The translations under genes were made by a program, and so were the position numbers. 64,000 nt of DNA from Chloroflexota bacterium (lineage in GTDB: Bacteria; Chloroflexota; UBA6077; JACCZL01): NCBI GenBank assembly GCA_020850535.1, contig JADZEM010000068.1, positions 1 through 64,000 of the forward strand. Reading direction: 5' to 3'. Of this stretch, positions 545 through 35,662 are shown in pieces. The notes under the pieces are model-generated. The model saw only the letters and a program-made list of their open reading frames with translations, was not told the DNA's origin and did no database searches. Position 1 is the stretch's first letter. Every line of letters starts with the position of its first letter.

Positions 545-847
545 CTACTTGGTGTCCCGCGGCGGGTTCGGATCATTTCCGGGCGCGACGGTATCGGAGT
601 CGCGGATCTTCCCGTCCTTCCCTTTGATGGTCAGCTCACCGCCACCGATGTTACCCAGGATCTCCCTGCCTCGCTGCATCGCCTGAACCTGGGTGTCGGT
701 GTGCGCGCTGGCGCGCTTGCCGCCGGGCCTGACGACGTCCCAGCCTCCCCCGGGGCGGGCCTGCACGGTCCGCCGCTCAGGGCCTTTGGACTTCCCGCCA
801 GTTCGGCCGCCCCCGCCACCCTTGCCGCTGCCGCCCTTACCCGCCAT
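545..847 (-). CDS. DUF2188 domain protein
   Basis: The 100-residue product has a Gly/Lys-rich N terminus (about residues 1-25) and then a DUF2188-type core containing PGGGWDVVRPGGKRAS and a GGGELTIKGKDGKIRDSDT segment. DUF2188 proteins are small and of unknown biochemical role. GGAGGACAACTC precedes the ATG, giving a good ribosome site. It is the last gene of a leftward set and lies about 190 bp beyond the helicase gene, so it may have its own promoter. Confidence 0.75.
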   Translation of the reverse strand: MAGKGGSGKGGGGGRTGGKSKGPERRTVQARPGGGWDVVRPGGKRASAHTDTQVQAMQRGREILGNIGGGELTIKGKDGKIRDSDTVAPGNDPNPPRDTK

Positions 848-1038: not shown

Positions 1039-4000
1039 CTAGGCGGGGCAGATCAGGTTGAAAGGGCATGGTGGGCAGTGCTCGAGGCTCTGCTTCGGTC
1101 GGAACCCGCCGGCCTCGATGGCGCGGATGAGCTCGGCCATCTTGCCGGTACGGTTCGAGATCACCCTTGCGGTCGGGTCTGCTGGCTGCTCCAGCCCGCT
1201 CAGCGGGTAATACAGTCGCACCTCGAAAGGCACCCCAGCGTGGTCCTGGTGGTGCAGCGCCGCGTAGAGGGCGAGGCGGTGATCGTCCTTGTGGGACTTG
1301 GCGGGCCGGCCGAAGTGGTAGCGGCGGTAGATGTGCTTGCCGTCGCGTACCTCCTCCTCATCGACGTTGACCTCCACGACCCGTTTGTCATCGAGCCGGA
1401 GCGCCGCGCGACGACGGATGGTGACCTGCAAGCCCGGCGCTAGGCGCTCGGAGAAGGCGCGCACGAGGCGCTCGGCGCGACGTCGGTACCCCCGCTCGTA
1501 CCAGTGGCCCACCAGACCGCTGTCGTCCCAGTGCCCGGCCAGGTGCGCGAGCGCGGCCGCGACGTCCGGCGGAGAGCCGCCGGACGTTTGATTTGCCATC
1601 CACGAGAGGGTCGCATACACGGCGCGGTGGAAGAGGATGGAGCCGCGCTCCTCCCCGCGCAGCCCGTAGACATGCCCGTACTTGAACCGCTGGCCGCACG
1701 CCTCGTAGTCCTCGAGTGCACCGAACGGCACCTCGGCAGCGAGCACCCAGGGGTCACCTGACCGAGCGGCTGGCGTGGGCACGGGGGCGGCACCCGTCGG
1801 CTCCGCTCGGCCCACTCGCAGATACCCCGCCGGCTCCAGGGCGTCGACCAGCGGCTGGAGGGCGGGTGCGGGGATGGCAGTCCCGCGATTGCCGTACCTC
1901 TCGGCGTGGCTGAGGACCAAGTGGTCGCGGGCACGGGTCGCGGCGACGTAGAAGAGGCAGAGCTCCTCGATCCCTTCCTCTTCGTCGGTGGTCCCACGGA
2001 TCAGACCGGGCGGGAGGGGCAGCGGGTCGCGCTCGGCGAGCGGGAAGCGGCCGACGGCCAGGTTTGGCACGAAGACGACGGGCCACTCGAGTCCCTTGCT
2101 GCGGTGGACGGTCAAGACATGGACCACGTCGCTGGCGACGAGGGCATCGTCCGTGAGCCCCAGCTCACCGGACTCCAGGCACGTGCGCACGAAATCGATG
2201 AACGCCGCGGTGTCGCCACCGCCCATCAGCGCGCTCCGCTCGCCGAACTCGCGCGCCAGATCGGCCACCTGTCCGAGCGTTGCTAGCTGGCGCCGGCCGG
2301 CCGGTGAACCGTCGGCGAGCAGCTCGCGTAGCCACGTGGCGTGCTCGAACAGGTAGGCGGCCAGGACACCCCAGGGAGTCGCGAGGTGACCGAGCGCACC
2401 CGCCAGCGCCTTCAGGTGCTGCGCCCGGCCCAGCCCCTCGGCGCTCAATCCTTCGACCTCCCCATTGACTGCCGCGAAGAGTGCGGCCCGCGCCGACCGG
2501 CCGCGGATCTGCGCCGTCCGGAGTAGGCGGCGCAGGTCCTCCTCCGCCAAGTGATGCTCGGGCAGGCGCGCCAGCCGCACCAGGCCCTGCGGGTCGTCCG
2601 CGGCGAGCAGCAGGACCCCCAGGAGATCCTTGAAGGCCGCGCGGTCCTCGAGCGCCCCGCCCCAGTCGGTCGGGACGCCGGCGGCCTCCAGCGCATCCGA
2701 GATCTCCTGCGCCTGGGCCGTCCTGCGACAGAGGACGGCGATGTCGCCCGGTGGTCGGCCTGCGATCTCGCCCTTGACCCGCTCCACCAGCGCGGCCAGC
2801 TCGTCGGCACCCGTACCGGCCACCGACAGCTCCACCGCGGCTTCGGCCCGCAGCCGTCCCCGGTGGGCGCGCAGCTCGGCGACCGGAAGCGGCCGGCCGT
2901 CGGATCCGGCCGGTAGCGGGATATCCACGGCCTGGCCGGCTTTGACCACGTCCTCGACCGAGCGGTAGTTCCACACGAGCGGGATCACCTCGGCGCCCGG
3001 GTAGTCGTGTCTGAACTCGCGCAGGTTCACCGGCGACGCGCCGCGGAAGCGGTAGATGCTCTGGCGGGGGTCGCCAACGGCCCAGACGATGCCCCGCCCG
3101 CCGTCGAGGGCGTGGACCAGGCGGCCGCTGGCGTAGTTGATGTCCTGGAACTCGTCGACCAGGATGAAGTCCCACCGCCCGCGGATGTCGTCGGCCACAC
3201 CGGGCACGTCGAACAGGCGGACCGCCTCGGCGATCAGGTCCCCGTAGTCCAGGTACCCGCCCTCGCGCAGCCAGGCCTCGTAGGTCGCGTAGACCGCGGC
3301 CGCGTCGACACACTCGGCCGCCCTGCGGCGCTCGGCTGCGAGCGCCTCTGCATCGTCCTGGTCGGCAGGTTCCGGCCGTGCGGCAAGTTCTTGTTGCCAC
3401 TCCGCCGCGGACCGCGCGACGTCCTCGGGCCCGCGCAGCTCGTCCTTGGCCCTGGAGATGGTCTGGAGCAGGCGCCGCAGGTTGCGCGAGGGTCGGTGGA
3501 GGTCTTCGAAGTTACCGAGCGGCAGCTGCCCCAAGCGGCGGCGCAGCAGCACGAAGGCGTCGATCTCCGTGAGGAGTTGCGGGTCTTCTTTCAGCCCGAG
3601 ATGGTGGCCGTAGGTCTGCAGGAGCTGGAACCCCAGCGAATGGAAGGTCGCCACGTCGATGGCGTGGGCCTGCGCTGGCAGGAGCGAGGCGAGGCGCGCC
3701 CGCATCTCCTCAGCCGCCTTGTTGGCGAAGGTCAGCGCGAGGACGCGGTTCGCGGGCACCCCCCGTTCCTGCACGAGGTAGCGGTAGCGCTCGGTGAGCA
3801 CACGGGTCTTGCCGGCGCCGGGCCCGGCCAGCACAAGGCCCGCCCCGTCCACGGTGGCGGCGGCCTGCTGCGACGAATCCATGCCGGGCACCGGCCGGTC
3901 GCCCGCCGACGGGGCCGGCGCCAGCGGCGCCGGTCCGGGCAGGAGGGCGGCGGCGAGCTGGTTGAGCATCGCCGTGCGCGTCACGCCGAAGTAGGCGGCG

Positions 4001-4497
4001 AGGCGACGCACGGTCCAGCTCGGGTCGCCGAGGACCATGGAACGCACTCGCTCAACCGGCATCAGCAGCTCGGCGGCGAAGACGTTGGCCTCGAGCTCCC
4101 AGCGGTCGCGGTCGCTGTAGGCCCGGTAGACGCCGTCCTTGACCGTCAGGGCCCCGACGTGCGGCGCGTCGTCGATCTGCTTTGGGCTGTCGTCGAACCG
4201 GCGCGGCGGGTGCTCGAGGGCGCGGTGTCCGAGCTCGTGGGCGACGGTGAAGCGCTGCCGCGCCGCCTCCTCGTCCGGGCGATAGCCGATCACACCGTCG
4301 TCCAGGTACAGGCGACCGGACACGTTCTCCGGGAGCTCATCGTCGGGCACGACCGACAGTTGGTAGAGCTCGCGGGCGATCGCCTTGAGGTGGGCATGGC
4401 TACCGGCGTGCAGGCCGAACGGCGGGCGCCCGGTGCGCCGCTCGTATGCACTGAGCACGTCGGCCGCGCGTCGACGGATGATCGCCCAGTGGTCCAC
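1039..4497 (-). CDS. ImmA/IrrE peptidase - UvrD-type helicase - PD-(D/E)XK nuclease fusion
   Basis: The 1152-residue protein has three parts. Residues 1-185 form an ImmA/IrrE-like zinc peptidase with HELGH at 87-91 and a downstream E. Residues 210-870 form a superfamily 1 UvrD/Rep helicase with Walker A GPGAGKT near 225-231, Walker B VDEFQD and motif TVHRSKG. The C terminus resembles AddB/Cas4-type nucleases, with YEACGQRFKY and a final C-x2-C-x5-C that could hold a 4Fe-4S cluster. The GTG start at 4497 has GGAGGG nine nt upstream; a longer frame would overlap the previous gene by 210 bp. ImmA proteases often cut Xre repressors, and the gene upstream encodes an HTH protein, so the peptidase may act on it (inference). 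A DNA repair or defence role is likely. Confidence 0.85.
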   Translation of the reverse strand: MDHWAIIRRRAADVLSAYERRTGRPPFGLHAGSHAHLKAIARELYQLSVVPDDELPENVSGRLYLDDGVIGYRPDEEAARQRFTVAHELGHRALEHPPRRFDDSPKQIDDAPHVGALTVKDGVYRAYSDRDRWELEANVFAAELLMPVERVRSMVLGDPSWTVRRLAAYFGVTRTAMLNQLAAALLPGPAPLAPAPSAGDRPVPGMDSSQQAAATVDGAGLVLAGPGAGKTRVLTERYRYLVQERGVPANRVLALTFANKAAEEMRARLASLLPAQAHAIDVATFHSLGFQLLQTYGHHLGLKEDPQLLTEIDAFVLLRRRLGQLPLGNFEDLHRPSRNLRRLLQTISRAKDELRGPEDVARSAAEWQQELAARPEPADQDDAEALAAERRRAAECVDAAAVYATYEAWLREGGYLDYGDLIAEAVRLFDVPGVADDIRGRWDFILVDEFQDINYASGRLVHALDGGRGIVWAVGDPRQSIYRFRGASPVNLREFRHDYPGAEVIPLVWNYRSVEDVVKAGQAVDIPLPAGSDGRPLPVAELRAHRGRLRAEAAVELSVAGTGADELAALVERVKGEIAGRPPGDIAVLCRRTAQAQEISDALEAAGVPTDWGGALEDRAAFKDLLGVLLLAADDPQGLVRLARLPEHHLAEEDLRRLLRTAQIRGRSARAALFAAVNGEVEGLSAEGLGRAQHLKALAGALGHLATPWGVLAAYLFEHATWLRELLADGSPAGRRQLATLGQVADLAREFGERSALMGGGDTAAFIDFVRTCLESGELGLTDDALVASDVVHVLTVHRSKGLEWPVVFVPNLAVGRFPLAERDPLPLPPGLIRGTTDEEEGIEELCLFYVAATRARDHLVLSHAERYGNRGTAIPAPALQPLVDALEPAGYLRVGRAEPTGAAPVPTPAARSGDPWVLAAEVPFGALEDYEACGQRFKYGHVYGLRGEERGSILFHRAVYATLSWMANQTSGGSPPDVAAALAHLAGHWDDSGLVGHWYERGYRRRAERLVRAFSERLAPGLQVTIRRRAALRLDDKRVVEVNVDEEEVRDGKHIYRRYHFGRPAKSHKDDHRLALYAALHHQDHAGVPFEVRLYYPLSGLEQPADPTARVISNRTGKMAELIRAIEAGGFRPKQSLEHCPPCPFNLICPA

Positions 4498-4502: not shown

Positions 4503-5369
4503 CTAGCCCTCCCGACCCTCGGTCTCCAACCACGCGCGCCGGTGCTCGTCGGTCAGGTCCGGCGCGCTCGCCAGCGCATCGCGGAACGGCACGAGCCCCC
4601 GCTCGTCGGCTCCCGCGGGCTGCGCCACGCTCGCCTTCGACGTGCCCCTGCGCCCCTGGGTGCCGGCGCGCGCGTGCGCCAACTGGGCCGTACGGGCCCT
4701 CGGGGCTATGCACCGGCGCACCTCGGCGGCGCCGATGCCCAGCTCCTCTCCCAGCCCCTCGAGGAGTGGCTCGGGCACGGTCTCCGGGTCGATGCGGCCG
4801 CGCTGCAGCTTGAGCGTGACGCTCGGGGGCACCCGGAGTCGCCCCGCCAGGTCGTCGTGGGTCACGCCGGCGCGAGCCAGCAACCCCGCGAGCGAGGCCG
4901 GGTCGTGCGTCGAACCGGCGCCGGACTGGTCGGGCGCGCCGGCGGCGACCGGCAGCACGACCCTCTCATGGATCTTCACACCGAGTGCGTCGGCGACTTC
5001 CTGGACCCGTTCCAGGCTCACGCCGGCGTAGCGAGTGGCCTCGTATCGCTGCACCTGCTGCTTCTTCAACCCGAGTCGACCGGCCAGCGCCTCCTGGCTC
5101 AACCCGGCCGCCGCCCGCGCGCGGATCAACGCCTCCGGCAGCTCGCCGAGGGAGGCCAGCTCGAGGACCGCCACCTGCCCGCGGCGCAGGGCTTCGTACT
5201 CGGCGAGCTGCTCGCGCAGCTCCTCGACCTGGCTGTCGTACTGGTCACGCAGCGCCTGCCGCGCTCGGGGAGGAAGGGAGGCGCCCTCCTCGTCGACGCC
5301 GGCACGGGCCTGCTCGAAGCGCTCCAGCCAGCTCTTGGTGATGCGGTACTGCCGCTCGTTCGTGATCAT
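4503..5369 (-). CDS. Xre-family HTH protein with C-terminal extension (partner of DUF6932)
   Basis: The 288-residue product has an N-terminal helical segment (1-75), then a typical Xre helix-turn-helix around residues 80-130 (LIRARAAAGLSQEALAGRLG, KKQQVQRYEA). A second HTH-like stretch around 165-205 and a C-terminal DLTDEHRRAWLE motif follow; both recur in the protein encoded two genes upstream. Its ATG overlaps the TGA of the DUF6932 gene by four bases, so the two are co-translated. The same pair recurs at 62.2-63.1 kb, where the HTH protein lacks the extension. It probably represses its own operon or acts as an antitoxin-like partner, and could be the substrate of the ImmA domain encoded next door. 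Confidence 0.75.
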   Translation of the reverse strand: MITNERQYRITKSWLERFEQARAGVDEEGASLPPRARQALRDQYDSQVEELREQLAEYEALRRGQVAVLELASLGELPEALIRARAAAGLSQEALAGRLGLKKQQVQRYEATRYAGVSLERVQEVADALGVKIHERVVLPVAAGAPDQSGAGSTHDPASLAGLLARAGVTHDDLAGRLRVPPSVTLKLQRGRIDPETVPEPLLEGLGEELGIGAAEVRRCIAPRARTAQLAHARAGTQGRRGTSKASVAQPAGADERGLVPFRDALASAPDLTDEHRRAWLETEGREG

Positions 5370-5818
5370 GGTAGGCCTCCTAGATCGATCGCGACGATGC
5401 CCTTCGGGTCGCCGGTGTCCCTGTCGCGCTGGAAGAAGTCGAGGTACGGCGTGCCCCTCGGGTCCGCCGCCGACTCCGCGATGAAGAGCTCGCCCCCGAA
5501 CGTGGCCTTCTGGGCCGCCCGCCGATTGCGCCAGTCGAGCAGGACCGGGGCGAGCTGGTCCAGGCTGTCGAATTCGACGTCGGCCATCTCCCAGCAGGCA
5601 TCGAAGTCGTTGGGCGCCTCCTTGGCGGTGACGAAGCTGCCGTCGATGTACGCCCGCCGGCACCCGGCCCGGCGGAGCGAGTCGAGCGCGGCCTTGAGGC
5701 CGGCGAGCAGCGCCAGGCGGTGCGGGGTGTAGCCGTAGCGCGCCAGGAGCCCATCCCAGGTAGCCTCGTGGATGCCGGGTGGCAGGTTGCCCGTGGCCGC
5801 GTCGAATGGCGGGAGCAT
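5366..5818 (-). CDS. DUF6932 family protein (nucleotidyltransferase-like)
   Basis: The 150-residue product begins with a PPFD-x-x-TGNLPPGIH motif and contains YIDGSFVTAKEAPNDFDACW, a pattern like the nucleotidyltransferase GS-x(n)-D-x-D core. It ends with DFFQRDRDTGDPKGI. The family is usually found beside an HTH gene, as here with an ATGA overlap, and is suspected to be a toxin-like component; this is not shown. The start lies nine bases from the stop codon of the upstream gene, so it may be read from that operon, from its own near-leaderless promoter, or both. Confidence 0.75.
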   Translation of the reverse strand: MLPPFDAATGNLPPGIHEATWDGLLARYGYTPHRLALLAGLKAALDSLRRAGCRRAYIDGSFVTAKEAPNDFDACWEMADVEFDSLDQLAPVLLDWRNRRAAQKATFGGELFIAESAADPRGTPYLDFFQRDRDTGDPKGIVAIDLGGLP

Positions 5819-5819: not shown

Positions 5820-5839
5820 AGACAATTCTACCGTTGTCT
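5820..5839 (-). promoter_or_regulatory. Inverted repeat and possible leaderless promoter before DUF6932
   Basis: AGACAA and TTGTCT form a 6-bp inverted repeat with an 8-nt spacer immediately upstream of the DUF6932 ATG. On the minus strand a TAGAAT -10-like hexamer sits about 12 nt before the ATG, which would give a leaderless mRNA. The repeat is a candidate operator for the HTH partner. Confidence 0.35.
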
Positions 5840-6469
5840 CTCTTCCCGATCAAGGCCGCCGCGCCGCTCCAGCCAGTCGCGGCGCTGCGCCGGGGTCAAG
5901 TCCTCGCAGCTCGCGAGCAGCGCACGGAATGGCTGCGGGGCTGGCCGCTCGCCCGTAGCCGGCCGTCCGGTGCCGCGGGCGTGCCCCGCACTGGATCGCC
6001 GGATGGGAGCCGTGGCCGTCGCTCGCAGGACATCGAGCGCTTCCTCGGCCGTCCGCCGGAGCACAGCCCCCAGTCGACTCAAGAAGACCGGGTCGATCGG
6101 CTCGTCGTCATCCGCGATCAGCCGGCCGCGCTCGACCCGCACGATGAAGCTCACGGGCACATTGATCGTGGCTGCAGCCTGCTCGCGGGAGACGCCGGCC
6201 CCGGCCAGCGCCTCCCGCAGCGTCTCGGCTCCGCAAGCATCCTGCACGGCCTGCTCGCGCAGCCTCCGCGTGGAGGCGGAGGACTCCGGCGGCTCCGGCA
6301 CTCGGTCGAGCGCCCGCTCCACCTCGAGCAGCGTAGTGATGAAGTCGACGAGTTCCTCCCGGTGGTGCGGGTGGCGAGCGACGACCTCCTCCAGCGCCGG
6401 CGCCTGTCCCGCCTCGTGCGCTTCGAGGTATGCCACCTTGATCTCGTCCACGTCCCGCTCGGCGCTCAT
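5828..6469 (-). CDS. Unknown protein co-encoded with the sigma factor
   Basis: The 213-residue product starts with a helical region (1-60, rich in acidic residues and HPHHREEL). A helix-turn-helix-like stretch follows around 85-120 (AGVSREQAAATINVPVSFI, then RGRL), and the protein ends with DLTPAQRRDWLE near 190-201. The last two segments closely resemble the middle and tail of the HTH protein encoded two genes downstream, so the two share a module. Its ATG overlaps the sigma factor stop by four bases, the position often held by an anti-sigma or sigma-modulating gene. I do not recognise a named family. Confidence 0.6.
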   Translation of the reverse strand: MSAERDVDEIKVAYLEAHEAGQAPALEEVVARHPHHREELVDFITTLLEVERALDRVPEPPESSASTRRLREQAVQDACGAETLREALAGAGVSREQAAATINVPVSFIVRVERGRLIADDDEPIDPVFLSRLGAVLRRTAEEALDVLRATATAPIRRSSAGHARGTGRPATGERPAPQPFRALLASCEDLTPAQRRDWLERRGGLDREERQR

Positions 6470-7263
6470 GTCGCGTCCCCTTCTAGTCGTTGCGCGTACA
6501 TCGCCCGGAGCGTGGCCAGCGCCTGCTCCAGGTCGGTCTGGGCGGTCTTAGCCGACACACCGACGCGGGCGGCGACATCGGCCCACGCCCGCCCGTCGAA
6601 CAGGCGATCCTCGACCACCCGCCGCTGGCGCGGCGGCAGCTGGCCCAGCCAGCCCACCGCCGTCCGGCCGAGGGCCTGCTCCGCGATCCGCGCGTAGGCA
6701 TCCTCACCGGCCGGGTCCGCCACCTCCAGCGGCCGGGCGACTCGCTCGCCGCTTGCCGCCGCTGCCGCTCGCTCGTTGGCGGCCTCGAGGCTCAGCAGGG
6801 TGAAGCCTGCCGAGTTCGGTGCGCCCGCCTTCGTGAGGCCGTGATGCACCCGCACTTTCCTGATGGCGTCGATGATCAGGGTCTTCACGACCAGGTTGAA
6901 GCGTCGTTCCATGAGGGCGTTGGTGCCCGAGGTGTCGCGGACCCGCCGGCAGAGCTCGGCGAACATCTCGGCCACCGCGTCCTCGATCAGCTGGGGCGCC
7001 TCGTCGAACGCGGCGCGGGCGTAGCGCTCGAAGCGCCGCTCGAGCCGACGGGCCAGTTCTCCGACGATCGACGTGGCCCGCGCCCGCGCCCGCACCGCCG
7101 CCTCGGCCTCCCCCCGCGCGCGTCGCTCCTGCTCGGTCCGGAGATGGCCCCGGAGCTCGCGGACCATCTCCTCGGCTTCCCCGGGACCGAAGACCGGGTT
7201 GCCGCCGCCCAATCGCTGGCTGCTCACGCTCCCGACGCTCCTCATGTGGTGCGGCCGCACCAT
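6466..7263 (-). CDS. ECF-like RNA polymerase sigma factor
   Basis: The product (up to 265 residues) carries a region 2-like segment (LIEDAVAEMFAELCRRV ... LVVKTLIIDAIRKVRVHH) and a region 4-like helix-turn-helix (LGQLPPRQRRVVEDRLFDG, AWADVAARVGVSAKTAQTDL). The N-terminal 70 residues are a charged, probably coiled extension. Starts at 7263 or 7245 are both possible and neither has a strong ribosome site. It diverges from the ubiquitin-like operon with only 167 bp between, so both may share a control region. It probably directs transcription of this accessory module. Confidence 0.75.
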   Translation of the reverse strand: MVRPHHMRSVGSVSSQRLGGGNPVFGPGEAEEMVRELRGHLRTEQERRARGEAEAAVRARARATSIVGELARRLERRFERYARAAFDEAPQLIEDAVAEMFAELCRRVRDTSGTNALMERRFNLVVKTLIIDAIRKVRVHHGLTKAGAPNSAGFTLLSLEAANERAAAAASGERVARPLEVADPAGEDAYARIAEQALGRTAVGWLGQLPPRQRRVVEDRLFDGRAWADVAARVGVSAKTAQTDLEQALATLRAMYAQRLEGDAT

Positions 7264-7430: not shown

Positions 7431-8192
7431 ATGCCGACGCACGCCACGACGATCCCGACGACGTACCACCTCAGGGTGCTGGCCCAGAGCGGGAAGAAGG
7501 CCGAACTCCAGGCGCCTTCGAGCACTACGGTCCGCCAGCTGCGCGACGCCGTGCTGGATGCCCTCGGGATCCAGCCCGATCCGAACGTCGTCTGGTTCCT
7601 CCATTATCGGGGCGAGCAGCTCAACGACGATGCGGCGACCCTGGCCCAGGTCGTCGGCGAGCACGACTCGGATAAGCAGGTCATCCTGCACCTCAAGAAG
7701 CAGCCGTTCGCCGGGGCCTCCGCCCCGGCGGCGGTCGCCCCCGAGCCGACCCGCACCTACATCGAGCGGGCAGTTGCCGAGCTGCAGGAGCGGGCCGAGG
7801 AGTTCGCCATCGTGGCGATCGACGTGGCTGGCGTCGACGTCTACGTGACCTTGCTCGCGCGCGACCTGGGAGCCGGTCGCGACCGCTACACCGTCCGCCT
7901 GAGCTGCACCGGCTACAACCTCGAGCCCCCATCCGTCACGATGGTGCACCCAAGCACCCGCGCCGAGGTGGCCGACGCATGGCCGGACGTGCCAACCGGC
8001 CCGGGCGCCATCTTCCGGCCCAACCCCGGTAACGTGCGCGACGCCTTCGTCTGCGCGCCCGGCACGCGCGAGTGGTACGGTCACGGACACGTCGAGTTGC
8101 GGGGGCCCGAGCACTGGACGCTCGCCAACATCGTCGAGGCGATCCATTTCAGCCTCAACTCGACCGGGTACCGCGGGCGGTGTCGGCCGTGA
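7431..8192 (+). CDS. Ubiquitin-like / E2-like fusion protein
   Basis: The 253-residue protein has a beta-grasp ubiquitin-like domain at about 10-90 (TYHLRVLAQSGKKAEL, TVRQLRDAVLDALGI, YRGEQLNDDAATLAQV). An E2 (UBC)-like domain follows at about 108-250. Cys208 in FVCAPGT precedes HWTLANIVEAIHFSL by about 20 residues, as the active Cys of E2 enzymes precedes its W-x-x-x-x-I helix. The Ubl lacks a free C-terminal Gly-Gly because it runs into the E2 part. The ATG has AGAGGAGG nine nt upstream. It overlaps the JAMM gene by four bases and starts a three-gene E2/Ubl-JAB-E1 operon, comparable in content to Bil or other bacterial ubiquitin-like conjugation operons. The target is unknown. Confidence 0.75.
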   Translation: MPTHATTIPTTYHLRVLAQSGKKAELQAPSSTTVRQLRDAVLDALGIQPDPNVVWFLHYRGEQLNDDAATLAQVVGEHDSDKQVILHLKKQPFAGASAPAAVAPEPTRTYIERAVAELQERAEEFAIVAIDVAGVDVYVTLLARDLGAGRDRYTVRLSCTGYNLEPPSVTMVHPSTRAEVADAWPDVPTGPGAIFRPNPGNVRDAFVCAPGTREWYGHGHVELRGPEHWTLANIVEAIHFSLNSTGYRGRCRP

Positions 8193-8770
8193 GCGCGCTC
8201 GACACCCTCCTAGCAATGCTGCCGACACGGCGCCCGCGGCTGCGGGTCCTCGGGGCGACCGGCCGGCCCGCCCACCTGGAGACCCTGCTCGTGCCGCGCA
8301 CCATCGTGGGGGCCAGCCTGACGCACCTGCAGGCCGGCGGCGCCCGCGGCTGCGAGGAGTTCGCCTTCTGGAGCGGCCACGTCGTCGGCGACCGGATCGG
8401 CATCGTCGGGCGCGCCTTCCACCCGCGCACCAGCCAGGGGTACGGCCACGTCATGATCGACGACGACGCCCAGCTACTGTCGATGACGGAGCTCGTGCAC
8501 GAGCACGACGAGCTGGTGCTCTGTCAGTTGCACACCCACCCGGCCGATGCCTGGCACAGTCCGACCGACGACCAGGGCGCCTTCACCGACGAGGTCGGCT
8601 TCCTGTCGCTGGTGCTGCCCTCGTTCGCCTCGGGCGGCCTCGAGACGGCGGAGGCGTTCCGCCGGACGCAGCAGGGGTGGGTCCACGAGGGGCGCGCGGT
8701 GACGACCGGGCTGGTCCAGGTTTTCGGTGATCTTCTGCGCTACGACGGAGCCAACTGGCATGACGACTGA
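8189..8770 (+). CDS. JAB/MPN (JAMM) metallopeptidase
   Basis: The 193-residue protein shows the JAMM zinc signature: HTH at 115-117, Ser124 and Asp127/128 (LHTHPADAWHSPTDD), with a Glu at 56-57 (CEEFAFWSG) as the likely general base. The spacing between HxH and Ser is one residue shorter than in the textbook motif. Such enzymes trim or remove ubiquitin-like tags. The GTG start at 8189 overlaps the stop of the Ubl-E2 gene, and its own stop overlaps the E1 gene start by 11 bases, so the three are translationally coupled. It probably matures or deconjugates the neighbouring Ubl. Confidence 0.8.
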   Translation: MSALDTLLAMLPTRRPRLRVLGATGRPAHLETLLVPRTIVGASLTHLQAGGARGCEEFAFWSGHVVGDRIGIVGRAFHPRTSQGYGHVMIDDDAQLLSMTELVHEHDELVLCQLHTHPADAWHSPTDDQGAFTDEVGFLSLVLPSFASGGLETAEAFRRTQQGWVHEGRAVTTGLVQVFGDLLRYDGANWHDD

Positions 8771-10367
8771 ACAGAGCCGCGCCGAGCTGTTCCTCAGCCA
8801 GGAGCTGGGCGTGTCGGACCTCCCCCTCGCGCGGACGCGGCTGGCGGCGAGCGAGATCGCGCTGGTGATCTCCCGCGAGCTCGCCGAGGACCGCCTGGCC
8901 CAGCTTACCCTCCTGACCGCCGCGAACATACTCTGCCGCCTGGGACCGTACTGCCCGGCGATCACCGTCTCCGCGCCCCAGGCGGCCCGGGTCGCCCCGG
9001 GCGTTCCACTGCTTCCGGCCGGCGCGGCGCTCGCCCCGGCGCTCTGCCAATTCATGACCGAGGTTCAGCGGCCCGCCGACCGCTCGGCGCGTCGATACCG
9101 GGTCGCCGGTCCCGCAGAGCGCTTCGATCTGGCCTTTGCCATCGGCTCCACCAGCGTACTCGCGGGCCGAACGCTCTACGCCTGGTACGAGCGATGGACC
9201 GGCGGGTTCCGGAGCACGCCCCGGCCGCCCCGCTACCACGGGCCGAACCCCTTCGGGGCGCTGCTTGCCGGCATGCTCGGGGCGACGGCGGCCAGTCGGC
9301 TGCTGCTGGCCCGCGTGGCGGCTCCGGCGTCTTCGCCGCGGCCACTGCCCTCCGAGGCGACGCTGTCGGCCTACTCCTATAGCCGTCCGGACGATCCCGC
9401 CGCGGAGCCCGACCTCCCCGCGGTGGTCGATCTGCGACCGGCCGGTCCGACGCTGCTCGTCGGCGGTGGCGCGGTGGCCTCCGGGGTGGCCTTCGCCCTC
9501 GCGAGTCTGGGCCGTGCGGCCGGGACCCTCGACGTGGTCGACGACGACGCGCTGGACGCGACCAATCTCGAACGACACCTGATCTCCGCTTGGACCGACA
9601 TCGGCGCACCGAAGGCGCGCCGACTGGCCGAGGTGTTCGGCAATGGCGTCTGGAATGGCCTGCACCTGCATCCCCGCATCTGCCGCTACGAGGCGCTCCC
9701 TCCGCAGCCTTGGCCTACCGTCATCGCCGCCGTCGACCGGCCGGACCCGCGGCGCCGACTCGAATTCGACTTGCCGAGGGTGCTCTTGAATGCCGGGACG
9801 GTCGGTTCCGAGTTCGTGGTGTCCCGCCACGATTATGGGGCCGGGCCATGCGCGGAGTGCCTGTACCCGGAGCGGCCGGCGGCGGTGAAGTCGCCGACCG
9901 AGATCGTCGCCGCCCAAACGGGACTCAGCGTCGGCGAGATCTTGGATCTTCAGGCGACCGGCGCACCGGTCGGCGCCGATCAGCTTTCCCGCATCGCAGG
10001 TTCGGGCGGCCTGGTCTTCCCGCCGGATGCGCTCTCCCGCGCCGCTCGCGAGGGCATCGGCGCGCTCGCGAGCGCTGCCTGCACCACCGCGGTAGTACGG
10101 CCGAGCCAACCGGTCGCCACGATCGGCTTCGTCGCGGCGTTGCCCGGCCTCCTGCTCGCCGCCGAGTTGATAAAGGAGGCGGCGATGGGCGCCCTGGCTA
10201 CCGGTCGGCCACCCCTCTCAGGGAACCGGAACATCTTCCGGATGGACACCTTCGGTGGCTTGGCCGACGAGTTGGAGCACGCCAAGTCCAGCCGCGGCTG
10301 TCGCTGCCGGAACAAAGTCATGCAGGCCGCCTACCAGCGGCGCTGGACCTGGGCAGCGAACGCATAG
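8760..10367 (+). CDS. E1-like ThiF-family adenylyltransferase
   Basis: The 535-residue protein has an unrecognised N-terminal domain (1-220) and a ThiF/MoeB/E1 Rossmann domain. Its ATP-binding loop is LLVGGGAVASG (232-242), followed by acidic VVDDD (259-263), and N269 and R272 in NLERH. CAEC at 364-367 and CRC at 514-516 could form a split zinc site. Cys441 (ASAACTT) is one candidate active cysteine. E1 enzymes adenylate the C terminus of a ubiquitin-like protein and pass it on as a thioester. It is the last gene of the operon; the large N-terminal domain is uncommon for the family. Confidence 0.8.
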   Translation: MTTEQSRAELFLSQELGVSDLPLARTRLAASEIALVISRELAEDRLAQLTLLTAANILCRLGPYCPAITVSAPQAARVAPGVPLLPAGAALAPALCQFMTEVQRPADRSARRYRVAGPAERFDLAFAIGSTSVLAGRTLYAWYERWTGGFRSTPRPPRYHGPNPFGALLAGMLGATAASRLLLARVAAPASSPRPLPSEATLSAYSYSRPDDPAAEPDLPAVVDLRPAGPTLLVGGGAVASGVAFALASLGRAAGTLDVVDDDALDATNLERHLISAWTDIGAPKARRLAEVFGNGVWNGLHLHPRICRYEALPPQPWPTVIAAVDRPDPRRRLEFDLPRVLLNAGTVGSEFVVSRHDYGAGPCAECLYPERPAAVKSPTEIVAAQTGLSVGEILDLQATGAPVGADQLSRIAGSGGLVFPPDALSRAAREGIGALASAACTTAVVRPSQPVATIGFVAALPGLLLAAELIKEAAMGALATGRPPLSGNRNIFRMDTFGGLADELEHAKSSRGCRCRNKVMQAAYQRRWTWAANA

Positions 10368-25443: not shown

Positions 25444-26211
25444 CTACAGGAACCAGTAGACGAGGGTGTCGTTCGCTCCGGCCAGCAGGAGCACCGCCGC
25501 CGCGAGCGGCCGCAGCCACGCATCCAGGCGCCGCGCACCCGCCAGATAGCTTCGGGTCGCGCCGAGACCGGCGCTCAGCACCGCCGCCAGGCCGAGGAGC
25601 GGCAGGGTCGTGCCGAGCGCGAAGGCGCCCGGATAGACGATCCCGACCGGCGAGGCCAGCGCCAGCGGGATCGTCAGCCCGAAGAACAGCAGGAACAGCG
25701 TCGGGCAGAAGGCGAACGCGAAGGCGACGCCGAGCACGAATGCGCCGCTCGTGCCCGGCCCGGCCCGCGCTTCGAGCCACTCCGAGAGTCCCTGGCCAAC
25801 CGTGAAGCGCAGTGGCGGCCAGCCGAGCAGGTGCAGCCCGAGCAGGATCATCAGCGGCCCAAGCGCCTTGCGCGCCGCCACGACAACCGGGATCGAGCTT
25901 TGCGCGGCTTCCCGCCCGAGCAGGATGACCGCCACGCCGACGACGGTGTAGACCAGCACCTTGCCGAGCAGGTACGCCAGCGCCCCGCCCGCGACAGATC
26001 GCCGCTCGCCGGCCCCGCGGACCACATACGCCAGCGCGCTCGCGTTCGTGGTGAGCTGGCAGGGGCTGGTCGCCCCGAGCAGCCCGAACAGGAGCGCGCT
26101 CACCAGCGGGATGCCGATGCCGTCCCCGAGCGAGCGGACCGGGTCGACCACCGCGGCGTTGAGCGCACTCAGGACGGCGTACCAGGACATGACCAGCCCG
26201 CGCAGGTCCAC
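25444..26211 (-). CDS. ccdA: CcdA/DsbD-like transmembrane thiol transporter (copy 1)
   Basis: The 255-residue protein has six or more membrane helices. One Cys lies in GATSPCQLTTNAS of the first helix pair and a second in AFAFCPTLFLLFFGL of the other, the arrangement of CcdA/DsbD proteins that carry reducing power outward to TlpA-type thioredoxins. It follows the methyltransferase gene by four bases. A second, more canonical CcdA is encoded at 45966-46679, so this one may serve a separate partner. Confidence 0.75.
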   Translation of the reverse strand: MDLRGLVMSWYAVLSALNAAVVDPVRSLGDGIGIPLVSALLFGLLGATSPCQLTTNASALAYVVRGAGERRSVAGGALAYLLGKVLVYTVVGVAVILLGREAAQSSIPVVVAARKALGPLMILLGLHLLGWPPLRFTVGQGLSEWLEARAGPGTSGAFVLGVAFAFAFCPTLFLLFFGLTIPLALASPVGIVYPGAFALGTTLPLLGLAAVLSAGLGATRSYLAGARRLDAWLRPLAAAVLLLAGANDTLVYWFL

Positions 26212-26215
26212 CCGC

Positions 26216-26929
26216 TCACCCCCGCTCTTCTATCGAGCCGAGAGCTCGCGGACCACGATCCTCGGGCTTGATCGCCGTGTAGATGGCGACCGTGCCGAAG
26301 GCCGTCGCCAGCCGCGAGGTCCGCCGTACCTCCTCGAACCCGGCATCGCACACCATCGACGGGAGAAGGCCCTGGATGTTGTCGCCGACCTCCTCGAAGT
26401 GGCGGGTGACGAGCGAGATCGCGCGCATCAGCCCTGTGTGCGGGCGGTCGAAGTCCGCGACGTGCAGCTCGCCTCCGGGCCGGAGCACGCGGAGCATCCC
26501 GCGGCAGGCGCGGCGCTTGTCGTCCGTTTTCAGGTGATGCAGGACGAGCGTCGTCAGCACCCGGTCGAATGACCCATCTGGGTACGGCAGCCGCGTCGCC
26601 GTGCCGCGCTCGAACGTGACCTCGCGCCCGCGCCGCGCCGCCTTGGCACGGGCGCGCCGCAGGATGCGGTCGTCCGGATCGAGCCCCACCACCTGGGCTT
26701 CGGGCTGCCGCTCCTTCACCAGAATGACGAGCGTGCCGGTCCCACACCCGACGTCGAGGACGCGCTGTCCGGGCTCGACGCGGGCGCCTTCTACGAGCCG
26801 ACGCTTCAGGGCGAGCTCCGGCATGACGCGGCTGACCAGCGGATCGTACAGCGGCGTCAGCCACCGATAGCTCAACGCCGGAATGTACCGGTCCGTCGCG
26901 GCGGCTGGTGGCGATTGCTGGCGTGTCAT
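26216..26929 (-). CDS. SAM-dependent class I methyltransferase
   Basis: The 237-residue protein has the SAM-binding motif VLDVGCGTGTLVILV (about 58-72), acidic VVGLDPDD, and LTTLVLHHLKTDDK, like UbiE/MenG or other small-molecule methyltransferases. The N terminus (LSYRWLTPLYDPLV) resembles quinone-type methyltransferases. GGAGGACTCC precedes the ATG. It sits just behind nuoN, so a quinone-related substrate is possible but unproven. Confidence 0.8.
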   Translation of the reverse strand: MTRQQSPPAAATDRYIPALSYRWLTPLYDPLVSRVMPELALKRRLVEGARVEPGQRVLDVGCGTGTLVILVKERQPEAQVVGLDPDDRILRRARAKAARRGREVTFERGTATRLPYPDGSFDRVLTTLVLHHLKTDDKRRACRGMLRVLRPGGELHVADFDRPHTGLMRAISLVTRHFEEVGDNIQGLLPSMVCDAGFEEVRRTSRLATAFGTVAIYTAIKPEDRGPRALGSIEERG

Positions 26930-26977
26930 GGAGTCCTCCTGCCCATCACGCGTCCGGGCCGACCGGCGTGTGACTCG

Positions 26978-28408
26978 CTAGCCTCCCAGGAGACCGGCTC
27001 TGGTGAACGCGAGGTAGAACGGTTCGGCGACGATGCCGACCAGGACGAGCGCCGCGGCGCAGGCCAGCGTGGCGACCGCCGCCCAGCGCCCGAGCACCGG
27101 CACCGGCCCGGCGAGCGGACCGAAGTAGACGGGGCCGAGCACCCGCGCGTAGTAGAAGATCGAGACGACGGTGTTCACGACCGCCAGCGCCGCGAGCCAG
27201 GTGTAGCCAGCTTCGATGGTGGCCCCGAAGAGCAGCAGCTTGGCGACAAATCCGACCAGAGGCGGGACGCCGATGAACGAGAGGAAGCTGACCGCGAGCG
27301 CGCCGGCGAGCCAGGCGCGGGCCCGGGCCAGCCCGGTGAACTCGCCAAGCGCCGTTCGCCCGCGCAGCTCGACCACCACGCCGAACGCGGCCACGTTGCC
27401 GACGACGTAGGCCAGCAGGAAGAACAAGAGCGACGGGACCGCGAGGGCGCTCCGCTCGAGGGCTACGACCGCCATCAGCCCGTACCCGATCTGGGAGACG
27501 GCCGACCAGCCCAGCAGCCGCCGCACGTCGTTCTGCCAGAGGGCGGCCAGGTTGCCGAGCGTCATCGTCGCGGCCGCCAGCACGGCAACGAGCGGTCGCC
27601 ACTCGACGGACTCCGTCGGCAGCGCGAGCACGAGCCGCGCGAGGAAGATGAGCCCGCCGACCTTCGGGATCGAGGTGACGAAGGCGGCGACCGGCGCCGG
27701 TGCCCCCTGGGCCACGTCCGGCACCCAGGCGTGGGCCGGCAGCGCGCCGATCTTGAAAGTCACCGCCAGGATGACCAGCGCTGCGCCCGTCGCGAGGGCC
27801 AGCCCGCCGGTCGGGAGCCCGCGCGTCAGGCCCGACAGCGTGGTGGACCCGGCCAGGCCGAACAGGTAGGCCACCCCGATCAGCATGCTCGCGCTGGTGA
27901 AGGCGCCGACCAGGTAGTACTTGATCGCCGCCTCCGAGGCCGGCGAGGAGCGGCGGTGGTAGGCGGCGAGCACGAAGCCGGTCGCGGACGAGAGCATCAT
28001 CGCCATCACGAACTGCTTCAGGTCGGTCGCCCCGGCCAGGAACACGGCACCGAGCGCGGAGAGGAGCAGCAGCGCGTAGTACTCGCCATGTCGGTGATCG
28101 GACTCGAACCAGGGCACCGAGAGGCCGATCGCGCCAACCGTGCCGGCCAGGACGATCAGCTTGCCCCAGACCGCCGTCCCGTCGCGCGCGTACGTGTCCG
28201 CGAACGTCAGGTACTCCGGGCCGCCGAGCATCGCCAGGGTGGCGACGGTCGCGAGCGCCGCCGTCGCCAGGGCCAGCAGCGCGGCCCCGGCCTGGAGCCG
28301 CCGGGGGGCCGCGAGCGCGTAGAGGAGCACGACGACGCTGCCGACGACCAGCACGATCTCCGGGATCACGTCGGCGACCATCGCCGCCATGTTCGCGGTC
28401 ATGTCCAT
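26978..28408 (-). CDS. nuoN: Complex I-like subunit NuoN
   Basis: The 476-residue protein has about 13-14 membrane helices and the antiporter-like subunit pattern, with KYYLVGAFTSASMLIGVAYL, AHAWVPDVAQGAPAPVAAFV and SIPKVGGLIFLARLV. It is a proton-pumping membrane subunit by family. It ends the nuoA-BD-H-J-K-L-M-N series. Length is close to normal. Confidence 0.9.
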   Translation of the reverse strand: MDMTANMAAMVADVIPEIVLVVGSVVVLLYALAAPRRLQAGAALLALATAALATVATLAMLGGPEYLTFADTYARDGTAVWGKLIVLAGTVGAIGLSVPWFESDHRHGEYYALLLLSALGAVFLAGATDLKQFVMAMMLSSATGFVLAAYHRRSSPASEAAIKYYLVGAFTSASMLIGVAYLFGLAGSTTLSGLTRGLPTGGLALATGAALVILAVTFKIGALPAHAWVPDVAQGAPAPVAAFVTSIPKVGGLIFLARLVLALPTESVEWRPLVAVLAAATMTLGNLAALWQNDVRRLLGWSAVSQIGYGLMAVVALERSALAVPSLLFFLLAYVVGNVAAFGVVVELRGRTALGEFTGLARARAWLAGALAVSFLSFIGVPPLVGFVAKLLLFGATIEAGYTWLAALAVVNTVVSIFYYARVLGPVYFGPLAGPVPVLGRWAAVATLACAAALVLVGIVAEPFYLAFTRAGLLGG

Positions 28409-28530
28409 CGGTCTGGCCTACGGCGTTCGGGCGAGCGCCCGGCGCGGTGCGTGGCGCGGCGGCGTGCGGCGCAGCACCGGGCACACGCTCCTGTCGCGGG
28501 GTAGCGGCGGCCGGATCACGGGCAGGCACC

Positions 28531-30075
<1,545 letters not shown>

Positions 30076-30091
30076 AGGCAGGCTCCCCTCG

Positions 30092-32044
30092 TTACACCAG
30101 CGCCGGAACCAGCAGCAGGACGGCGACCATCACGGCCAGCCCAACCGCCAGGATGACGTAGTAGTGGTGGGCCAGGCCCGTCTGGAGCCGCCGGCTGGCG
30201 TGACCGGCGCGGCCGGTCAGCCGGGCGCTTCCTTCGACGGCTGCCCCGTCGATCGCCGCCTCGTCGGCCACCCGCGAGCCGCCGGCAAGCCGCAGCGTGC
30301 CGAGCGCCGTGGCCCGGACGGCGCCGTCGATCGTCCACTCAGCCCGCCGCGAGAACAGGCGTGACAGCGCGGCGGCGAGCACCGCGACCCCGCGCACCCC
30401 GGCGTCCACGACGCGCGCGTCGCCCCAGGCCAGCGCGCGGGACAGGCTGAGGACCGGGTTCACCACGAGCAGGCGGGTGGCGAGAGGCAGGCCCAGCCAG
30501 TCGGCGGCGCGCGCGTGCAACGCGGACGGCAGGCCGAGACTCGCCAGGCGACCGCCCCGGTCCAGCCCCCAGACGAGCGCGAAGGCGGCGACGATGAGGG
30601 CGAGGGCGACGCCGAGCTCCCAGGCAGCCGCCTCTCCCAACGTCCGCTCGGCCACCGCCTCGACGACCGACCCAGCACCCGGTAGCCACAGCGCGGACAG
30701 GAGCAGGGTGGTCCCGGCGAGCGCGGCGACGCCGGCCAGCTCGACCGCGCCCGGACGGTGGTGAGGCGCCTGCGCGGTGGCCTCGCCCCCACCCGCCGGT
30801 CTAGCCGGTGGGGGGCCGTAGGCCAGGAGCTGATAGCGGGCGGCGTAGACCGCGCTCAGGAAGCTCGCCAGGAAGACGCCGGCCGCGAGCCAGGGCGAGG
30901 CGTGCACCGCGGCGGCTACGATCTGTTCCTTCGTCCAGGCGCCCCCCAGCGGCGGCACGGCCGCCAGGGCCAGCGCCCCCACGGCCGACAGCGCCGCGAC
31001 GCGCGGGAGCGCCCGGCCGAGCCGCAGGCCGGCCAGGTCACCGGTGCCCACCGCGTGCATGGCGATGCCAGCACCCAGGAACATGAGCGACTTGAAGGCC
31101 GCGTGAGCCACGAGGTGCGCACCGGCGGCGGCCGTCGCACCGGTGCCGACGGCGACGAACATCAGCCCGTACTGCGCCGAGGTCGAGGCCGCCAGTGCCC
31201 GCTTGACGTGCGGCTGGACCGTCGCGACGACCCCGCCCGCGAGCGCGGTCGCGAGCCCGACGCCGGCCACCACCGGCAGGAACCAGCCGACCGACGCCAG
31301 CGCCGGGGCCAGGCGGATCAGCAGGTAGGCGCCGGCCGCCACCAGCGTCGCTGAGTGGAGCAGCGCCGACACGGGGGTGGGGCCGGCCATCGCCGCGAAC
31401 AACCATGAGGAGAAGGGAAGCTGGGCCGACTTCGCCGTCGCGGCGAGCAGCACGCCGGCGGCAACCGCGTCCAACGCCGGGCGTCCGGCCAGACTCAGCC
31501 CGTCGAACGCGAAGCTCCCGGTAGCCGCGAACAGGAGCCCGGCCGCCGCGTACAGCCCCAGGTCGCCGACGCGGGTGGTGACGAAGGCCACCGTGGCCGA
31601 GCGCGGCGCCTCGGGGTTCCGCCAGTCGTGGGCGATCAGCGCCCAGGAGGCGGCGCCGACCAGCTCCCAGCCAATCAACAGCGTCAGGAAGTCGGTCGCC
31701 AGGACGAGCCATTCCATCGCCCCGACAAAGGCCAGCAGCAGCGCGAGCAGACGGGCACGCCCCCCCTCCTCGCTCACCGCCGCGTAGGCGACGATCGGCG
31801 CCGCGATGAGCGGGACGAGCACGGCCATCACGCGCCCGAAGCCACTGACCGCCAGTCCCAGCTCGATGGCCGGGCTCCAGCGCCAGCGGACGGCCGGCTC
31901 GGCCGCCGCCGTCCACCCGCCCAGTGCGAGGGTCGCAAGGAGCGCCCCGACCGCGAGCGGACCGAGCAGCCCGCTCCGACGCCGAAGTAGCACCAGGAGC
32001 CCGGCGGCGAGGAGCGGCAAGAGCGGCAGGGCGAGCACGCTCAT
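30092..32044 (-). CDS. nuoL: Complex I-like subunit NuoL
   Basis: The 650-residue protein has about 16 hydrophobic segments and NuoL motifs such as LIGWELVGAASWALIAHDW, KSAQLPFSSWLFAAMAGPTP and ALLHSATLVAAGAYLLIRL. The usual QLPFHTWLPDAMEGPTP pattern is recognisable but diverged. The C terminus holds the lateral-helix region. Its ATG overlaps the nuoK stop by four bases. Confidence 0.92.
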   Translation of the reverse strand: MSVLALPLLPLLAAGLLVLLRRRSGLLGPLAVGALLATLALGGWTAAAEPAVRWRWSPAIELGLAVSGFGRVMAVLVPLIAAPIVAYAAVSEEGGRARLLALLLAFVGAMEWLVLATDFLTLLIGWELVGAASWALIAHDWRNPEAPRSATVAFVTTRVGDLGLYAAAGLLFAATGSFAFDGLSLAGRPALDAVAAGVLLAATAKSAQLPFSSWLFAAMAGPTPVSALLHSATLVAAGAYLLIRLAPALASVGWFLPVVAGVGLATALAGGVVATVQPHVKRALAASTSAQYGLMFVAVGTGATAAAGAHLVAHAAFKSLMFLGAGIAMHAVGTGDLAGLRLGRALPRVAALSAVGALALAAVPPLGGAWTKEQIVAAAVHASPWLAAGVFLASFLSAVYAARYQLLAYGPPPARPAGGGEATAQAPHHRPGAVELAGVAALAGTTLLLSALWLPGAGSVVEAVAERTLGEAAAWELGVALALIVAAFALVWGLDRGGRLASLGLPSALHARAADWLGLPLATRLLVVNPVLSLSRALAWGDARVVDAGVRGVAVLAAALSRLFSRRAEWTIDGAVRATALGTLRLAGGSRVADEAAIDGAAVEGSARLTGRAGHASRRLQTGLAHHYYVILAVGLAVMVAVLLLVPALV

Positions 32045-32346
32045 CCGCGCAGCCGCCGAAGCTTCTCGGTGATGTCTGCGCGCCGGACGCGGTAGACGTT
32101 GGTGACGAGGGCGAAGCCGAGCGCCATCTCGATCGCCATCACGGTCATGAAGACGATCGCCAGCATCTGGCCCTGGGGGTTGCCGCCGGCCGTGCGCGCC
32201 CAGAAGGCGACCAGGGCGAGGATGGCGGCGTTGATCATCAGCTCGAGGCCCATGATCAGCATCACGAACGACTGCTGGCTGAGCGCGCCGTAGACACCGA
32301 TGCCGAACAGCGCGGCGGCCACGACGAGCACGGCTTCGAGGGTCAT
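32041..32346 (-). CDS. nuoK: Complex I-like subunit NuoK
   Basis: The 101-residue protein has three membrane helices with the conserved Glu in MLIMGLELMINAAIL (normally GIELMLNAVNL) and a second in VMAIEMALGFAL. These two glutamates lie in the proton path. Length matches the family. Confidence 0.92.
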   Translation of the reverse strand: MTLEAVLVVAAALFGIGVYGALSQQSFVMLIMGLELMINAAILALVAFWARTAGGNPQGQMLAIVFMTVMAIEMALGFALVTNVYRVRRADITEKLRRLRG

Positions 32347-32412
32347 CGCGTCGCCTCCCTCATCGCGTCGCCTGCAGTCATGGCCCCGCCTCCCGTCCTG
32401 GCCCCGCCCCCG

Positions 32413-32982
32413 TCATCGCCTGGCGTCCGACTCGGGCGCGAGCGGCGGCTCCTGCGAGCCCTCATCGGCCTCGCCGTAGCGGCCCCGCCGGCTCGCGATG
32501 GCGACCGCTCCGATCATCGTGGCCAGGAGCGCGACCCCAGCCGTCTGGAAGACCAGCATCGAGTCGCCCAGCAGCTCGATCCCGAGCTGCTCGGTCGCCA
32601 TCTCGGGCCGGGGGTTTGGCCGGTCGGGGAAGTCCGCGACCAGGGCCAGCCCGGCCAGCACCAGGAAGGCGCCGACACCGGCCGCGACGGCGACCCGGTG
32701 CTGGTGGACCATCCACATCGGGTTCAGCCCGGCCGGGTTCATCATGTACATCACCATGACGATCGCCATGACGAGCATCTCGCCGGCCATCATCAGGATC
32801 AGCACCATCCCGAGGAACTCGGCGCCGAGCAGCACCAGGATCCCGCCGACCCCGGCGAAGGAGGCCAGCAGGTAGAAGGCCGCCCGCACCATCGAGTCGG
32901 TCCGGAACACGCGGTACCCGGTCAGGACGCTGCCGACCGCGAACAGCCAGAACAGCGCGTCGACGAGCAGCGACTCGGTCAC
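32413..32982 (-). CDS. nuoJ: Complex I-like subunit NuoJ
   Basis: The 189-residue protein (GTG start overlapping the nuoH stop) has five membrane helices and the NuoJ pattern (SMVRAAFYLLASFAGVGGIL, LLGAEFLGMVLILMMAGEM). The Tyr-rich helix 3 region of other NuoJ proteins is altered. It contributes to the membrane arm near the coupling region. Confidence 0.88.
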   Translation of the reverse strand: MTESLLVDALFWLFAVGSVLTGYRVFRTDSMVRAAFYLLASFAGVGGILVLLGAEFLGMVLILMMAGEMLVMAIVMVMYMMNPAGLNPMWMVHQHRVAVAAGVGAFLVLAGLALVADFPDRPNPRPEMATEQLGIELLGDSMLVFQTAGVALLATMIGAVAIASRRGRYGEADEGSQEPPLAPESDARR

Positions 32983-35227: not shown

Positions 35228-35231
35228 GCGA

Positions 35232-35606
35232 TCACGACCAATCGAGTGCCCGCTCCCGCCACGCGTAGAGCACCCCGAGTAGCAGGATCGTGATGAACAT
35301 CCCCATCTCGACGAAGGCGACGAAGCCCTCGCGGACGAACACGACCGCCCACGGGTACATGAAGACCATCTCCATATCGAAGGCCAGGAACACCAGCGCC
35401 ATCACGTAGTAGCGAGCGTGATAGCGGCTCCAGGCGTGGACCCCAGGCGGCACGCCCCCGGCGAACGGCACGCGGTCGGAGGACGTCAGCCCCGCCGCGC
35501 CCCGGCGCGGGCCGTCGCCGATCCACCAGAGCAGGAGCAGGACGCCCAGCGCACCGACGAAGACCGCGAGCGCGACCCCGAGTGGGCCGAGCATCCCCCC
35601 CATCAA
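35232..35606 (-). CDS. nuoA: Complex I-like subunit NuoA
   Basis: The 124-residue protein has three membrane helices and the NuoA motif RYYVMALVFLAFDMEMVFMYPW, including the acidic D/E pair. The long loop that normally carries the Cys-rich quinone-site segment (PYECG) is replaced by PFAGGVPPGVH. It is the first nuo gene, four bases before the BD fusion gene. Confidence 0.9.
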   Translation of the reverse strand: MMGGMLGPLGVALAVFVGALGVLLLLWWIGDGPRRGAAGLTSSDRVPFAGGVPPGVHAWSRYHARYYVMALVFLAFDMEMVFMYPWAVVFVREGFVAFVEMGMFITILLLGVLYAWRERALDWS

Positions 35607-35662
35607 CGTTCCTCCAGCGGGTCGTCAGGCTGCGCCAGGTGACACCGGTCGGGGCCGATCGG

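Follow-up and report, generated by a model that had tools for sequence, protein, structure and literature searches.

What does a bacterium gain from joining a zinc peptidase, a helicase and a nuclease-like end in one polypeptide? The question is raised by a 64,000-nucleotide stretch of a Chloroflexota genome (assembly GCA_020850535.1, contig JADZEM010000068.1, positions 1 to 64,000; hereafter the window), whose minus strand encodes such a protein of 1,152 amino acids (aa) between 4497 and 1039. The original prediction regarded this fusion as part of a switch, triggered by DNA damage or phage, that acts with an adjacent helix–turn–helix (HTH) gene. Our tentative answer, to which we give a little less than an even chance, is that the fusion acts as sensor-protease in a control cassette of three genes, encoding a sigma-like factor, a protein that we call X and the protease-helicase itself, which governs a ubiquitin-like (Ubl) conjugation operon. 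The features that carry this reading were all computed: domain order and its conservation, the invariant residues of the zinc and ATPase sites, the missing nuclease site, the sigma–X–fusion gene order, association with Ubl operons and a repeated DNA element.

A family of peptidase–helicase fusions

The fusion frame opens with GTG at 4497, directly past the stop codon of the upstream HTH gene (HTH1). Its predicted extent is borne out by the open frame, by Pfam domains and by colinear relatives.

1039..4497, minus strand: fusion of an M78 zinc peptidase, a UvrD/Rep superfamily 1A (SF1A) helicase and a putative AdnA-like PD-(D/E)XK pseudonuclease with four cysteines (Pfam, residues in 71 relatives, predicted model)

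Pfam places Peptidase_M78 at aa 57–181 (5.6e-13), UvrD-helicase at aa 209–500 (4e-59) with UvrD_C behind it, the UvrD domains together covering aa 209–866, and PDDEXK_1 at aa 927–1151 (2.3e-9). When 400 genomes of the phylum (the phylum sample) were searched with the peptidase domain, 61 contained a match, and about 50 of the places found lie in single frames of roughly 1,000–1,400 aa; by Blast, relatives align colinearly over most or all of the fusion at 27–37% identity. Long frames in so many places, together with whole-chain colinear alignment, mean that the fusion is no product of accidental read-through or of misassembly. It represents a family and not an isolated oddity.

About 70 colinear relatives were collected from Chloroflexota, Proteobacteria, Cyanobacteria, Verrucomicrobia, Acidobacteria and Abditibacteriota. 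A genome scan beyond the phylum sample supplied fusions from Acidobacteria, Alpha- and Gammaproteobacteria and Verrucomicrobia, and a plasmid collection supplied those from Cyanobacteria, Betaproteobacteria and Abditibacteriota. On the fusion tree a Roseiflexus record lies within a clade of sequences from the phylum sample, in agreement with Chloroflexota as the phylum. At least 80% of the fusion is present in 86 plasmid records, mostly near-copies from Acinetobacter, and the protein is rare among Gammaproteobacteria genomes (2 of 369). Its hosts include plasmids of Acinetobacter, Klebsiella, Rhizobium and others and at least one Escherichia coli chromosome; the E. coli and plasmid copies are annotated merely as 'UvrD-helicase domain-containing protein' and sit beside hypotheticals. 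Three plasmid fusions (L186, L219 and L231; Roseomonas, Rhizobium leguminosarum and Sinorhizobium alkalisoli) look degraded or are only partly annotated. No full-length fusion was found in a phage collection at 1e-20. A literature search gave no earlier description of the fusion or its cassette, although the main papers on CapP and on the Bil and Bub Ubl operons lay outside its reach, so that a prior description may exist.

Residue conservation was read from 71 aligned fusions, and that of the cysteines from the 69 that hold the region. The zinc peptidase inferred from a HELGH motif stands: AHELGH occupies aa 86–91, and H87, E88, H91 and E134, the HEXXH zinc site with its downstream glutamate, are invariant in 71 of 71. 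PADLOC matches CapP to aa 36–181 (9e-21), and by profile the solved structures nearest to the M78 part are CapP (7t5t, 3.7e-6) and IrrE (3dte, 2.4e-4). The superfamily 1 helicase called from the letters is equally well founded, with Walker A K230, the DE box D448/E449 and R512 each present in all 71 sequences. The fusion model (mean pLDDT, the predicted local distance difference test, 80.8) matches UvrD and AdnA over aa 210–1152, with Deinococcus radiodurans UvrD at Z 38.1; helicase matches fill the structure-match lists of this model, and the peptidase domain is missing from them. Walker A, the DExx box, further motif residues and the fold thus agree with a UvrD/Rep SF1A helicase, which would be expected to retain helicase activity.

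The C-terminal end had been predicted to be an AddB/Cas4-like iron–sulphur nuclease, and here the fold and cysteines held while the catalytic residues did not. Its profile matches AdnA best (2.4e-6), and C934, C1141, C1144 and C1150 are present in 69 of 69 fusions, a putative iron–sulphur set by residues. The column of the nuclease aspartate, 1059, never holds D or E, 51 of the 71 fusions having R there and 11 having W, and that of the nuclease lysine, 1061, is K in 3 of 71. These columns align with D934 and K936 of AdnA, the former replaced by alanine in the AdnA(D934A) chains of known structure. With the catalytic D-x-K pair lost across the relatives, we rejected an active nuclease; the alignment suggests instead a structural or DNA-binding pseudonuclease. 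Gabija was rejected as well: the PADLOC GajB matches are restricted to the UvrD domain, and no GajA OLD-type nuclease occurs among the nine neighbouring proteins scanned.

Gene order and linkage to ubiquitin-like operons

The minus-strand gene run of the window reads sigma-like gene, X, DUF6932 gene, HTH1, fusion and then a DUF2188 gene. Oriented divergently from it, an operon at 7434–10367 unites Ubl, E2-like, JAB and E1 functions. The sigma-like gene, a second HTH-fold gene, the DUF6932 gene and this divergent operon all go beyond what had been noticed before. The window starts at the first base of the contig, and genes past 545 may be missing.

545..847, minus strand: DUF2188 protein (PADLOC PDC-S16) downstream of the fusion, membership of the unit uncertain (Pfam 1.4e-18, PADLOC 3.5e-20)
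4503..5369, minus strand: HTH1, a candidate substrate in which an XRE HTH (aa 77–136) precedes an X-like half (HTH_3 8e-11; 36% identical to X, 6e-11)
5366..5818, minus strand: DUF6932 protein (PADLOC PDC-M63A; Pfam 1.2e-39, PADLOC 6e-12)
5828..6469, minus strand: X, with a helical N-terminal part, an XRE-fold domain (aa 80–155) and a conserved C-terminal tail; proposed substrate (family upstream of the fusion; model, fold matches)
6466..7263, minus strand: sigma-70-family-like protein, region 4 clear (Sigma70_r4_2 2.1e-7; TIGR02937 4e-10)
7434..8192, plus strand: ubiquitin-like and E2-like domains in one frame, in the divergent operon that is the proposed output (Pfam ubiquitin 2e-4; PADLOC BilB 6.8e-6)
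8207..8770, plus strand: JAB-type peptidase (Prok-JAB 4.4e-4; PADLOC BilC 3.5e-7)
8727..10367, plus strand: E1-like (ThiF) enzyme (ThiF 1.3e-12; PADLOC BilD 4.6e-14)

The HTH gene expected just upstream of the fusion is indeed an XRE HTH gene (5369–4503). The idea of a single HTH repressor as partner did not survive: the conserved partners are the sigma-like factor and X. Hybrids of the HTH1 type, an XRE HTH with an X-like half, were seen only in the window, which, because HTH1 carries that half, has two candidate substrates. The DUF6932 gene lies within the run of the window, yet it is no regular cassette member elsewhere. The DUF6932 and DUF2188 proteins, whose genes flank the fusion, both match PADLOC candidate-defence models (PDC-M63A and PDC-S16).

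Sigma70_r4_2, which represents region 4, is matched by 10 of 12 members of the sigma-like family. In the window protein TIGR02937 aligns over aa 69–254 at 4e-10, which is below its cut-off, and no separate Pfam match to region 2 was found. For the proteobacterial members the sigma assignment draws on region 4 and on annotations such as 'sigma-70 family' and 'sigma factor-like HTH'. X has no good match to any Pfam family. Fold matches to its model include the HTH domains of CapH (Z 6.7) and DdrO (Z 6.4), the fold being a common one and the best match an uncharacterised Neisseria protein; in Proteobacteria the XRE sequence of X is degenerate.

Searching for cassettes with models built from sigma and X relatives, we found the order sigma, X, fusion on one strand in 17 Chloroflexota relatives (L040–L049, L052–L054, L057, L065, L073 and L076) and in nearly every locus from sources other than the phylum sample. 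Only a few cassettes lack an X-family gene ahead of the fusion, and with one Chloroflexota group set aside, almost all have an HTH-fold protein encoded there.

Loci outside the phylum sample were picked by fusion similarity alone and their neighbours viewed later. Of these, 21 had a whole fusion and sufficient flanking sequence to be evaluated, and 18 of them carry a Ubl-pathway E1 within about 6 kb of the fusion, the exceptions being L095, L096 and L185; the 21 are not independent, some being close relatives (for example L179 and L181). Ten loci fetched later, again selected by the fusion and nothing else, all have X and, at a similar distance of about 6 kb or less, an E1; nine have sigma. 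The linked operons are of two types, Bub (multiubiquitin, ThiF, DUF6527) or Bil; strong BilA, BilC and BilD matches occur at L097. In the window operon a PADLOC scan found no BilA match, and because Ubl and E2-like domains share one frame, this Ubl lacks a free C terminus unless it is cut. The Ubl genes are divergent in Robbsia, as they are in L184 and the window. The fusion tree places the window as sister of L184 (45% identity) and outside the main Ubl-linked clade. Four changes of the Ubl label are needed on this tree, which makes more than one origin of the link probable. Cassettes with sigma and X and no Ubl operon also exist (L040–L049, L095 and L096). Where such an operon is present, its conjugation genes are the likely controlled genes.

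A promoter-like element and the proposed switch

A bipartite, promoter-like element, TTWCCGGT-N15-CGATTRA, recurs in the gaps between fusion and Ubl genes. Most real gaps score 12–15 of 15, compared with about 10 of 15 in shuffled gaps, a fit that is partly circular given that the element was derived from these gaps. Scanning whole loci revealed a second copy before X and few further copies. This copy lies upstream of sigma in L097, L099, L127 and L180 and elsewhere in the 3′ end of the sigma gene, about 210 bp before X; both copies are present in six of the ten fresh loci. The copy inside the sigma gene is coding (YRxxLxxAI), and protein conservation partly explains it. Its isoleucine is written ATT in 15 of 18 loci compared with the 6.2 that codon use in the same genes would predict, and some of these are loci in which ATT makes up only 8–12% of isoleucine codons. 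The excess is inflated and partly circular, since ATT belongs to the motif by which the loci were chosen. Before the inner copy was noticed, a scan of only 160 bp upstream of sigma had yielded only weak evidence when combined (Fisher p 0.012). At the two corresponding places L102 and L225 have in common another element, whose match exceeds that in each of 40 shuffles. The Bil-linked cassettes L102, L225 and L177 thus carry repeats unlike the bipartite element (CTTCCGGTTTTT with TCGCTCC; CCCATTTTT), in each case both ahead of sigma and ahead of the Ubl gene.

These data suggest the following circuit. In the resting cell, XRE-fold X, perhaps joined in the window by the X-like half of HTH1, would keep the cassette sigma factor inactive. 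Upon DNA damage or phage replication, the UvrD motor and the nuclease-dead four-cysteine end would engage single-stranded or broken DNA, and this engagement would activate the M78 peptidase to cut X. The freed sigma factor would then recognise the repeated element as its own promoter type, yielding more X and protease-helicase and turning the Ubl genes on. PprI and CapP provide a precedent, being activated by single-stranded DNA to cleave HTH repressors (PMC10904395; PMC13373217). The earlier guess of an ImmA-type switch was sound in pointing to a switch of the CapP/IrrE type, given the zinc site, the nearest structures and the HTH-fold neighbour, and is not supported as to an active nuclease as effector.

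Several findings weigh against this circuit. Proteobacterial sigma-like proteins have region 4 and no clear region 2, and X could bind DNA instead of sigma. At a threshold of 13 of 15 the element was not found in the window, in its nearest relative L184 or in L095 and L096. A search for motifs common to both directions of the window's divergent region, or to that region and L184, gave nothing convincing, and the Chloroflexota alignment upstream of sigma has no clear conserved block. Because no repeated element was found in the window, it is gene order that supports the sigma step there. About 30 Chloroflexota fusions stand alone, with neither X nor sigma nearby, and therefore have a use outside the proposed switch; one such clade (L059–L092) lies in conserved housekeeping synteny with type III pantothenate kinase and cytidylate kinase, which suggests a chromosomal role without the cassette.

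The strongest competitor, which we judge rather unlikely, is derepression of the CapH type. X, with HTH1 in the window, would be a DNA-bound repressor cut by the fusion after DNA damage, the Ubl genes would thereby be derepressed, the bipartite element would be an operator and the sigma-like protein an ordinary DNA-binding partner. The XRE fold of X, with CapH and DdrO among its matches, fits this account, as do the clear XRE character of HTH1, the precedent of CapH and CapP beside Bub operons and the several proteobacterial sigma-like proteins that lack a clear region 2. It sits poorly with the retention of a sigma-like gene immediately upstream of X in almost every cassette, with an element of two unlike blocks about 15 bp apart, closer to −35 and −10 boxes than to a symmetric operator, and with the degenerate XRE sequence of proteobacterial X. 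Given the position of X, its degenerate HTH and the two-block element, we lean towards X holding sigma rather than DNA.

We consider it improbable that the fusion is a direct anti-phage sensor or effector whose helicase tracks phage DNA and whose protease hits Ubl-pathway proteins or other targets, with no transcriptional role. The tight linkage of plasmid fusions to Bil and Bub operons would suit such a function, and helicases of this kind serve in defence, as the GajB-like PADLOC matches indicate; however, the known targets of M78 peptidases are HTH regulators, the nuclease is dead, and sigma and X cassettes occur without a Ubl operon (L040–L049, L095 and L096). A chromosomal Chloroflexota repair or damage-response helicase, acting like Deinococcus IrrE on a global repressor with the Ubl linkage secondary and non-regulatory, would account for the stand-alone fusions and the clade in housekeeping synteny but is highly doubtful, because linkage to E1 operons recurs across distant phyla (two or more separate links on the tree) and the element is repeated before X and Ubl.

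Relation to known control systems

The proposed sigma-release circuit resembles several known systems. In 2022 Lau et al. reportedly described CapH and CapP as an HTH repressor and an M78 protease activated by single-stranded DNA, located beside CBASS, Bub and other operons. The fusion cassette shares with that pair the M78 zinc peptidase, the adjoining XRE-fold protein and a location beside immune-type operons. It departs from it in including a sigma-like factor and in joining the peptidase to a helicase and pseudonuclease within 1,152 aa, CapP being small (291 aa in 7t5t). IrrE/PprI and DdrO of Deinococcus likewise rely on an M78 peptidase; theirs is activated by single-stranded DNA and has an HTH repressor as substrate, both of which we infer for the fusion, whereas the fusion's peptidase precedes a UvrD motor and its partners and gene order differ. 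As in AdnAB, AddAB and RecBCD, an SF1A helicase is followed by a RecB-family fold with a four-cysteine set; unlike them, the fusion has lost the catalytic D-x-K, has gained an N-terminal peptidase and lies in an operon without an AdnB-type partner. By analogy, the cassette would work like CapH/CapP and IrrE/DdrO with new parts.

The neighbouring operons encode Ubl, E2-like, JAB and E1 proteins (Bil) or multiubiquitin, ThiF and DUF6527 (Bub), and the cassette differs from both in being an added control unit. Unlike Bil systems with separate BilA and BilB genes, the window has Ubl and E2-like domains in one frame. CapK and CapS form a comparable DNA-damage-responsive control pair, mostly beside Bub operons (EMBO J 2026, PMC13373217), although that pair consists of a kinase and a STAS-winged-HTH (wHTH) repressor without protease, helicase or sigma factor. 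Among 544 Bub operons, 219 have been tied to CapW or to CapH and CapP and 59 to CapK and CapS (PMC13373217); the fusion may have been counted as CapP within those 219.

Many Bub operons have no assigned regulator, and for some of these the cassette offers a specific candidate that can be tested. A broader proposal, which we advance more cautiously and rate as plausible at best, is that it represents a cytoplasmic regulated-proteolysis circuit in which a helicase-tied M78 protease destroys an XRE-fold anti-sigma protein and frees a dedicated sigma factor for Ubl pathways, as a unit that moves between phyla and plugs into Bil or Bub operons. The cassette would also show plainly how a helicase-nuclease can become a signalling protein.

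Elsewhere in the window, a region of about 10 kb (26000–36000) stands out from the remaining sequence by its strongly positive AT skew, which reaches 0.35.
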